24,011 nt of DNA from Bordetella parapertussis (GTDB lineage: Bacteria; Pseudomonadota; Gammaproteobacteria; Burkholderiales; Burkholderiaceae_B), in contig CAMDEF010000053.1 of assembly GCA_945895265.1 (NCBI GenBank), forward strand, positions 1 through 24,011, in the 5' to 3' direction. Of this stretch, positions 21,893 to 24,011 are shown piece by piece. A model generated the notes under the pieces. The model worked only from the letters and a program-made list of their open reading frames with translations, was not told the DNA's origin and ran no database searches. A program made the translations under genes and the position numbers. Numbering within the stretch: position 1 is the first letter of the stretch; each line of letters begins with the position of its first letter.

Positions 21893-23194
21893 CTAAGACA
21901 TCATTTTTGACGGTAACCATGTCGCCACCTCAGGCACGTACCAAAGTAGCGCGACTGCAAGCACTAACAAAATAAAGAACGGAAACGACGCTCTGGAAAC
22001 GAAGGCAAGACTTTTTCCTGTCATTCCTTGCAGCAGAAATAAATTCATGCCGACAGGCGGGGTGATCAGCGACATTTCTACCACCAACACCAAGTAGATC
22101 CCAAACCAAATCAAATCAATACCGGCGAGCTTGATCGCCGGAAGGATGATTGAGCTCACGATCACAACGATCGAGATGCCGTCAATAAAACAACCCAGAA
22201 TAATAAAAAGTACTGTTAAGTATGCGATCAGATGCACCGGGCTTAGATTCATTCCGGTGATCCATTCTGCAAGCAACCTCGGCACGCCAGAATAGTCCAT
22301 GGCTAAGCCCAAAAAGGCCGCGCACGATAAGATCAGCGCGATCATGCAAGAGGTTTTCATTGCGCTCATGATCGAGTCGCTGAGAGAGCTCCAGGTCAGT
22401 GCGCCAGACAACGCAGCAAGAATCAGGCTGCCCAACACTCCCACCGCCGCTGCCTCGGTTGCCGTGGCAATGCCCAAATAGATTGAGCCGATCACCGCCA
22501 CGATCAGGCTAATGATCGGCATCAAACGCAGCGTTGAGACAATTTTTGTTTTTAGACTGACTTTTAAATCATCAGGCGGCACTTTAGAGGGATTCAACAG
22601 CGCCCATAGCGCGATGTACCCAGAAAACAGAATCACCAAGGCGAGGCCCGGCAGAATACCGGCGATGAAGAGCTTGGGGATCGATTGCTCTGCCGCAACG
22701 CCATAGACAATCATGATGATTGACGGGGGGATCATCAGACCAAGTGTTCCAGAGCCCGCAAGCGAGCCAATCGACATGTAAGGGTCGTAGCCACGCTTAT
22801 TGAGTTCGGGTAAAGACATACGCCCAATCGTGGCGGCTGTGGCCAAAGACGAACCAGAGACTGCGGCAAAGATGCCAGAGCCGATGACATTGACATGAAG
22901 CAGACGGCCCGGTAATCGGCCAAGCCAAGGCGCGAGCCCCGCAAACATATCTGCCGAGAGGCGGGTGCGAAATAATATTTCACCCATCCAGATGAACAAG
23001 GGCAGTGCCGTGAGCGTCCAACTCGAACTTGCGCCCCACACTGAGGTTGCAAATACGGCGCCGGGGCTCGCTTGAGAAGATAGCGCAATGCCAAGCACAC
23101 CTACAAGAGCAAGCGTGAGTGCAACCCATAGCCCAGTGGCCAGTAAGAGAAACAAAAATACGATCAGTACAATAGAAAGTAGCGCGCCATCCAT
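21893..23194 (-). CDS. dctM: TRAP transporter large permease subunit, DctM family
   Basis: 433 residues from the ATG at 23194, with GGAGTAAAGAC before it. The frame stays open to 23281, but that would overlap dctQ by 80 bases. About twelve membrane segments are visible, starting MDGALLSIVLIVFLFLLLAT. DctM marks include AVSGSSLATAATIGRMSLPE, with LNKRGYDPYMSIGSLAGSGT and LGLMIPPSIIMIVYGVAAEQ after it, and GCFIDGISIVVIVSSIILPA near the C-terminus. It is the sodium-driven translocating subunit. It starts four bases after the dctQ stop. The third component, a DctP binding protein, is not in the window, so substrate specificity cannot be guessed. Confidence 0.93.
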   Translation of the reverse strand: MDGALLSIVLIVFLFLLLATGLWVALTLALVGVLGIALSSQASPGAVFATSVWGASSSWTLTALPLFIWMGEILFRTRLSADMFAGLAPWLGRLPGRLLHVNVIGSGIFAAVSGSSLATAATIGRMSLPELNKRGYDPYMSIGSLAGSGTLGLMIPPSIIMIVYGVAAEQSIPKLFIAGILPGLALVILFSGYIALWALLNPSKVPPDDLKVSLKTKIVSTLRLMPIISLIVAVIGSIYLGIATATEAAAVGVLGSLILAALSGALTWSSLSDSIMSAMKTSCMIALILSCAAFLGLAMDYSGVPRLLAEWITGMNLSPVHLIAYLTVLFIILGCFIDGISIVVIVSSIILPAIKLAGIDLIWFGIYLVLVVEMSLITPPVGMNLFLLQGMTGKSLAFVSRASFPFFILLVLAVALLWYVPEVATWLPSKMMS

Positions 23195-23198
23195 GTCT

Positions 23199-23714
23199 TT
23201 ACTCCGCCTGGTTTGATTGCTCGGAGGCAAGAAAGAATTTGTCTTCGTGTTGTGCGATGGTGGCACAGAGACCATCCACACACGAAATCAGAAAGATCAA
23301 CATCCCCAGCAGCATTCCCATCTGCGGGATCCAAAGAGGGATTGGGACCATGCCAGGTGTCTTTTCATCAAAGTCAAAAGACTCCCAGGTCATGTGTCCA
23401 ACGTGAAAGGTCAAATAAGCCAAAAGCCCGACAGCCATCGCCAGGCAAAGCACGTCATACTTTCTTTTTGTAGAGGCCGTAAAGCGATCAATCAGCAACG
23501 TGACGCGAACGTGTATCCGATCTCTAAAGGTTGCTGCGAGCCCTAAAAATGACGAGGCAACCATGCAATAGCCGGCAAACTCATCTGCAGACTTGACTGC
23601 GATGCCGAGTTGACGACCAAAGACATTGGCAATGACAAACACGGCGATCAGCACAAAGAATACACCTGCCAAAACGCCCGCACCGTCATAGATTCGATTC
23701 AGAACAGCACGCAT
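23199..23714 (-). CDS. dctQ: TRAP transporter small permease subunit, DctQ family
   Basis: 171 residues with four membrane segments (about 12-30, 45-65, 88-108 and 130-150). The second segment region, GIAVKSADEFAGYCMVASSF then LGLAATFRDRIHVRV, is the typical DctQ pattern of an E-F/AGY motif followed by a charged RD-IHVRV segment. DctQ anchors and supports DctM in the inner membrane. AGAGGC lies before the ATG. It is the first gene of the dctQM unit; upstream there are only regulatory-looking sequences, not dctP. Confidence 0.88.
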   Translation of the reverse strand: MRAVLNRIYDGAGVLAGVFFVLIAVFVIANVFGRQLGIAVKSADEFAGYCMVASSFLGLAATFRDRIHVRVTLLIDRFTASTKRKYDVLCLAMAVGLLAYLTFHVGHMTWESFDFDEKTPGMVPIPLWIPQMGMLLGMLIFLISCVDGLCATIAQHEDKFFLASEQSNQAE

Positions 23715-23804: not shown

Positions 23805-23874
23805 GCAGAGTGACGTAGAGTGCTCGACGGTTGAGTCGGGCGTTTATTCTTATCCAAACAATATCGGAGATGTT

Positions 23875-23904
23875 ATGAACGCCTCCCTCCCCCCTGGGGA
23901 GTGA
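23875..23904 (+). CDS. Nine-residue leader ORF MNASLPPGE
   Basis: ATG at 23875 has the strong site GGAG five bases upstream, and the frame ends in TGA at 23902-23904. The peptide contains Pro-Pro-Gly, a sequence known to slow ribosomes strongly without EF-P. Its codons form a hairpin, CTCCCC-CCT-GGGGAG (23887-23901). About 100 bases downstream is the start of another ORF behind a structured RNA. This is the layout of a translated leader controlling a downstream gene, but the ORF is tiny and may be chance. Confidence 0.35.
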   Translation: MNASLPPGE

Positions 23905-23922
23905 GGGTGCCAGAAAAGCAGA

Positions 23923-24006
23923 GAGCCCTCGCTTTACCTAACGGCATCTAAGTGCCAAAGTGGAGTTTCTGAAATTAACCACAAACGGTAATGAGGGCTC
24001 GAAATG
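23923..24006 (+). promoter_or_regulatory. Predicted three-way-junction RNA element sequestering a ribosome binding site
   Basis: By hand folding, P1 pairs GAGCCCTC (23923-23930) with GAGGGCTC (23993-24000), then TTACC (23934-23938) with GGTAA (23987-23991). Inside are P2, GGCA-TCTAAG-TGCC (23943-23956), and P3, GTGG-AGTTT-CTG-AAATT-AA-CCAC (23960-23982). The GAGGG in the closing strand of P1 is the apparent ribosome binding site for the ATG at 24004, so closing P1 should block translation. I do not recognise it as a known riboswitch class. The end of an insertion element is an alternative reading. Confidence 0.4.
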
Positions 24007-24011
24007 AAGAT
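24004..24011 (+). CDS. Start of an ORF running off the window
   Basis: ATGAAGAT follows GAGGGCTCGAA, an acceptable ribosome binding site. Only two and two-thirds codons are visible (Met-Lys-Ile or Met), so no product can be named. It is called because of the structured leader just upstream that places its ribosome binding site in a stem. Confidence 0.3.

Follow-up and report, generated by a model that had tools for sequence, protein, structure and literature searches.

The 24,011-nucleotide stretch of Bordetella parapertussis DNA analysed here (the window) finishes in the left end of an IS1111-family (IS110 superfamily) insertion sequence, which occupies positions 23868-24011 and is complete in congener copies. 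We think it probable that a three-way junction within this left end is the 5' leader of the IS1111 transposase mRNA, where it would bury the ribosome-binding site (RBS) and keep transposase scarce in an element that its seekRNA would direct into host Shine-Dalgarno sites. Many IS1111 transposases in Pseudomonadota are preceded by this three-way junction, with the transposase RBS again in its closing stem. Membership of the insertion sequence family, fold, covariation, position on the RBS and target site were all computed here.

An IS1111-family left end at the edge of the window

Since only the first eight bases of the coding sequence fall inside the window, a copy found elsewhere was used to read the gene. 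This copy, L001 in genome G018, is complete and identical to the window at 147/147 shared bases, and the open reading frame which a preliminary description of this DNA had noted at 24004 is there a 339-aa IS1111 transposase. The protein (P0001, from L001 and L002) scored above cut-off for PF01548, PF02371 and NF033542 ('IS110 family RNA-guided transposase'). According to the available text of two reports, IS1111 elements are characterized by a DEDD transposase, subterminal inverted repeats and a long downstream non-coding region with guide matches (PMC11187229; PMC11208160). P0001 is a DEDD transposase with the IS110 N- and C-terminal domains and a length within the ~330-350 aa of IS1111 transposases. 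Further, the 14-bp subterminal inverted repeat (TATGAACGCCTCCC/GGGAGGCGTTCATA) lies within the 7-17 bp range of IS1111 elements, and the downstream non-coding region is the longer one (right 270 nt vs left 138 nt, initial boundaries). With these initial boundaries the element measures 1428-1429 bp in L001 and L002; judging from the insertion sites compared, the boundaries probably lie a few bases further in.

Matches at 92-100% identity were found in four of the 61 genomes searched (six in G020, three in G022, two in G018 and one in G016), with 9 of these 12 long matches stopping at a contig end, while G004 and G014 yielded short matches only. Among the matches listed for an unspecific 15-mer query, named carriers include Zwartia panacis KCTC 42751 (L033, a relative) and an Alcaligenaceae MAG (L043/L085). 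The preliminary description had also considered that its junction might prove to be the terminal repeat of an insertion element. The block does lie within such a left end, but the repeat itself begins ~48 nt 5' of P1 and the junction is a separate conserved feature (Table 1).

Table 1. Features of the element's left end and its insertion site, in window coordinates.
Feature	Position	Strand	Basis
Last host bases before the insertion sequence: GG of host CGGAGA Shine-Dalgarno	23866..23867	+	empty site in L297, L298, L299
Left end of IS1111-family insertion sequence, cut off by window end	23868..24011	+	complete, ~1.4 kb, in L001
Left subterminal inverted repeat TATGAACGCCTCCC	23874..23887	+	partner GGGAGGCGTTCATA at right end of L001
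Predicted hairpin distinct from the three-way junction and 5' of it, includes part of the inverted repeat	23879..23908	+	fold
P1 5' strand, GAGCCCTCG ct TTACC	23923..23938	+	fold, covariance model, covariation
P2 hairpin GGCAU-CUAA-GUGCC	23943..23956	+	fold, covariation
P3 hairpin GUGG...CCAC	23960..23982	+	fold, covariation
P1 3' strand GGTAATGAGGGCTC, contains likely Shine-Dalgarno GAGGG	23987..24000	+	fold, covariation, accessibility
IS1111 transposase gene start	24004..24011	+	in L001, 339 aa with Pfam domains DEDD_Tnp_IS110 and Transposase_20 and NCBIfam match NF033542

A conserved three-way junction on the transposase ribosome-binding site

Folding of 23860-24011 yielded the compact three-way junction with two internal hairpins that had been described for 23923-24000. 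P1 pairs 23923-23931 with 23992-24000 and then 23934-23938 with 23987-23991, so that the stem stands as described but holds 14 base pairs in the minimum free energy structure where thirteen had been counted. P2 pairs 23943-23947 with 23952-23956, and P3 pairs 23960-23963 with 23979-23982. The minimum free energy was -50.7 kcal/mol (z -3.0, 0/200 shuffles as low), a z value that covers the whole 152 nt, the separate hairpin 5' of P1 included. As had been claimed, the closing strand carries the RBS of the frame whose ATG is at 24004: an RBS-like GAGGG lies inside the 3' strand of P1. The predicted mean unpaired probability of the RBS was 0.056 with P1 and 0.36 in a piece lacking the P1 5' strand. 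The RBS is paired in a conserved covarying structure, as in leaders that act by RBS sequestration.

To follow the junction through the family, we read what lies upstream at 83 loci that encode a transposase N-terminus and saw the same layout at many. A sequence-based alignment of all leaders left P1 unaligned, a problem that was circumvented with a covariance model (R1) built from ten cleanly aligned leaders (alignment A2) whose transposases share 39-48% identity with the window type. R1 matched the window at 23922-24006 (33.3 bits, E 8.5e-6, 303 kb searched) and, with E up to 1 allowed, 59/79 sources, a figure that includes its own ten training sequences. The preliminary description had left its claim to covariation among homologues, and this is present: on 76 distinct sequences (alignment A5), 18/22 pairs change on both sides, 86.4% of cells are paired and double-change cells number 281 vs 97 in shuffles. 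The covariation score was 0.400 vs 0.145 in shuffles, 0/500 of which reach it, and a control in which partners were slid lowered it to at most 0.086. Since the alignments behind these pair counts were fitted to the structure or model, an alignment-free folding test was added, in which 50/71 leaders form a junction whose closing stem takes in the RBS/start region, compared with 17% of shuffles and 9/65 pieces of flanking DNA. This test applied a best-of-five-windows rule to all sequences and excluded ten duplicate or unsuitable loci as well as loci with less than 90 nt upstream; another best-of-windows count, 75/82, was biased and was set aside.

Outside the training set, 20/27 transposase loci carry the leader at E up to 0.05, while the other 7/27 gave no leader match at this threshold. 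A second model, R2, found the leader in 68/398 Pseudomonadota genomes, and the transposase was found in 74 of the same 398. We examined 30 loci around R2 matches. A tblastn match to the transposase was present at 22, and three of the remaining eight have an IS110-type N-terminus in an ATG-opened frame. At four, reading by eye revealed nothing recognisable after the start, one of these stopping at a contig end, and L244, at a contig edge, fell outside the reading; the totals are 25/30 with an IS110-type transposase, four with nothing recognisable and one unread. L283 gave no leader match. At L100:2717-2801, in a MAG labelled Proteobacteria, the leader stands before a transposase that is cut short not far beyond its start.

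P2 is conserved in sequence beyond what a lid on the RBS needs, which hints at a bound partner. Its GGC/GCC is nearly fixed across the family, and the apical U.G wobble pair is kept in 64/70 family sequences with letters there. Possibly, though this is tentative, the mRNA offers the transposase an autoregulatory binding site in the junction: the RNA-binding transposase would bind P2/P3 and lock or open the RBS stem. Transposases of the IS110/IS1111 family co-purify with RNA, according to the available text of PMC11187229. However, models R1 and R2 did not find the whole motif a second time within the right non-coding regions. The sole partial match is a 14-nt P2-like hairpin in IS5075/IS4321 (L281, L282; 1553-1566, minus strand, downstream of tnp; R2 10.1 bits, E 0.46), which may be chance.

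It is also conceivable, but in our judgement doubtful, that conservation acts at the DNA level: recognition would then be of the left end as DNA, and the complementarity would merely follow from a third inverted-repeat copy. P1 starts at most 5 nt from the ATG of the left inverted repeat in 29/41 elements (two without a P1 value), so that in such elements the repeat is the 5' strand of P1; here the distance from repeat to start codon is 60-95 nt. A strand test was mixed. Once the apical U.G pair of P2 is omitted, the count of 45 G.U vs 92 A.C cells does not favour RNA over DNA, and the comparison fails as support for the RNA reading outside that pair. The A.C excess resides in P1 (65 A.C vs 11 G.U cells in A5), unlike P2 and P3, and could be due to alignment error, to purine pressure acting on the strand with the RBS or to some function of the antisense strand. 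Against the DNA-level explanation, P2 and P3 covary though they lie outside the repeats, and the U.G apical pair of P2 would be a mismatch in DNA. Further, a distance of 113-206 nt separates the repeat from the start codon in the window's clade, where P1 draws on a strand of its own. The two P1 strands are GAGCCCTCG/TGAGGGCTC in the window, GGACCCTCA/GGAGGGTCC in L193, GGATCCTCG/GGAGGATCC in L134 and GGGGTCTCG/GGAGACCCC in L138, and in L001, L134, L163, L138 and L139 they change together at 45-57 nt from the inverted repeat. That the separated P1 still co-changes argues that it is kept for its own sake. Two members of this clade, L135 and L164, showed no convincing junction.

Target sites at host gene starts and a predicted junction promoter

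The window element inserts (23867/23868) between the Shine-Dalgarno bases of a host gene and its start codon. The same site is uninterrupted in three congeners, where ATATCGG (ATACCGG in L299) is followed directly by AGACAACATG and stands before a 326-aa frame, which in L297 is DctP (Pfam PF03480, E 5e-35). The TRAP transporter genes dctM and dctQ lie beside the insertion in the window (21893-23714, minus strand), and the insertion would have interrupted the matching dctP, which is intact in the congeners.

Two distinct elements follow this Shine-Dalgarno target rule at many sites (L285-L296; L300-L310). For window-type copies, ten left flanks end in GG with the boundary as set here, while three G022 copies lack the exact pattern. 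Twelve window-type right ends were found, 11 with flank, and a start codon follows 7-8 bases on in 11/11 (one TTG); the open frame is at least 193 aa in 10/11 right flanks and 16 aa in L296. In case of the second element (G445, transposase 60% identical), ATG occurs 7-9 bases after the boundary in 11/11 copies, GGA precedes the boundary in 9/11, and frames of at least 91 aa are seen in 8/11 fragments. Shine-Dalgarno targets occur in 6/12 elements with a leader separated from the repeat vs 0/44 others (Fisher 2.8e-5), based on 56 elements with both ends found, from which 17 duplicate loci had been dropped by name and in which the 44 include one type three times, as L281, L282 and L147. This link between separated leader and target is not statistically independent, because 11/12 separated-leader elements form one clade (100/100 support; tree of 54/56, L269 and L282 left out). 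The other five members of the clade have no Shine-Dalgarno target by the same rule. Our literature search, which covered titles and abstract openings of the records listed with subscription papers and preprints outside its scope, found no publication on a conserved IS1111 leader or on Shine-Dalgarno targeting by IS110/IS1111 elements; the target logos of PMC11187229 could already include such a target.

The right non-coding region of L001 contains guide-like segments of 8 and 10 nt, ACGGAGAC and ATGTTTGTCT, which match the two strands of the target and were not jointly equalled in 200 simple letter shuffles. This suggests a guide RNA from the right non-coding region, as a predicted transcript. 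With a single target tested for each, guide matches were good in L001, L134 and L135 and weak in L163, L139 and L193. The non-coding region of the G445 element holds AGGAGAA and ATGGCGG, counted without shuffle control, and against the single L193 target the second strand matches 5 nt only. The position of these matches bears on whether the left-end structure is itself the seekRNA or bridge RNA. IS110-group elements usually carry their guide RNA upstream of tnp, as the available text of PMC11187229 and PMC11208160 has it, but a search of the right non-coding region, the usual place of an IS1111 guide RNA, gave the guide-like matches of the window element, and we consider a left-end guide RNA very unlikely here.

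Joining right and left ends of 41 elements gave a -10 box with at least 5/6 bases in 35 and a -35 box with at least 4/6 in 34, each count being the best of 27 placements without shuffle control; the right repeat sits in the spacer. For the window type the joined ends, read from linear ends, give a predicted junction promoter, TTGCCA-16-TATAAG. A junction promoter is documented for ISEc11 in the available text of PMC11187229. As the start is predicted at the inverted repeat, at or upstream of the P1 5' strand, the three-way junction of the window type would be transcribed whole from this promoter, and a brake would not be specific to read-through. The idea that the leader represses read-through transcripts only is weakened by this prediction. 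Separately, the window-type right end together with host AG (L285-L296) again reads TTGCCA-16-TATAAG. The start codon of the host gene follows 6-7 bases downstream, an arrangement that may yield leaderless host transcripts.

Probable translational control of the transposase, and related systems

We infer both the braking effect of the leader and its purpose; most likely, the leader is a translational brake on the transposase. A seekRNA (bridge RNA) would direct the element into host Shine-Dalgarno sites. As the element lands in sense orientation immediately before host start codons, read-through is to be expected, and its place downstream of host promoters suggests a particular need of a brake. 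Transcription would start at the promoter of the interrupted host gene or at the one that end joining creates in the circular form. When a transcript comes in from the left, P1 would pair with the transposase RBS and P2 and P3 would complete the junction. With the RBS paired in P1, translation would rarely start, and the leader would keep transposase scarce despite host read-through. More speculatively, and with considerable reserve, this may be an IS1111 lineage whose guide RNA is programmed for the Shine-Dalgarno/start-codon region, which survives there because its insulated junction leader silences transposase against host read-through, and whose right end, with host bases (TATA plus AG), completes a promoter with its predicted start on the host start codon, the interrupted gene perhaps living on as a leaderless mRNA.

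The closest comparison is ISPpu9 of Pseudomonas putida (IS110/IS492 group), described in the available text of PMC8450116. There, too, a folded 5'-UTR in an IS110-superfamily tnp mRNA buries the RBS and lowers translation, and weakening this fold raised a tnp-lacZ fusion 26-fold. ISPpu9 differs in belonging to another group, in its longer UTR with the start codon at +245 and in its regulation by the sRNAs Asr9 and Ssr9; a three-way junction or a comparative RNA family is not mentioned in that text (PMC8450116). Within IS1111, ISEc11, ISPa11 and ISKpn4 share with the window element a DEDD transposase, subterminal repeats and a long downstream non-coding region with guide matches (PMC11187229, available text). 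In the main text of that report the words 'translation' and 'leader' occur 0 times, and its available sections do not treat the short upstream region as RNA. The window's clade differs from these three elements in that the repeat stands apart from P1 and several members use Shine-Dalgarno targets. ISEc11 still moves with cargo inserted after bp 50, according to the same available text (PMC11187229); movement in that assay thus tolerates an interrupted left region.

IS4321 and IS5075, which target Tn21 ends, belong to the same IS1111 family as the window element, and L147, near-identical to them, has the same junction-promoter layout as the window type. Their leader is short, with ~60 nt from repeat to start codon, and no three-way junction is predicted; a fold of 90 nt allows pairing between the left repeat and the start region. 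In IS10 and IS50, incoming outside transcripts hide the transposase RBS in a fold-back stem. These are DDE elements with a simple stem, whereas the window element has a three-way junction that would be present in the junction transcript too.

A metabolite riboswitch controlling the transposase, after the riboswitch-like reading of the preliminary description, is scarcely credible and was rejected: a compact three-way junction with RBS sequestration would suit one, but the downstream gene is an IS110/IS1111 transposase, as at most R2 loci examined, the structure is a mobile element's left-end leader with no junction predicted in IS4321 and IS5075, nothing found suggests a metabolite ligand, metabolite-pathway genes were not found at the R2 loci read, and Rfam 15 gave no match for the window at gathering score or for L001 at E up to 1, in line with the earlier remark that the consensuses considered (TPP, purine, c-di-GMP, guanidine, glycine) do not fit.

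IS110/IS1111 elements attract attention at present as programmable DNA recombinases, and the papers cited here on them deal with the guide RNA. A second conserved RNA, placed in the transposase message and setting the amount of enzyme, would bear on both the biology and the use of IS110/IS1111 elements. The Shine-Dalgarno rule, followed by two distinct elements at many sites, represents natural RNA-guided insertion at gene starts and leads to testable predictions on host gene expression after insertion.
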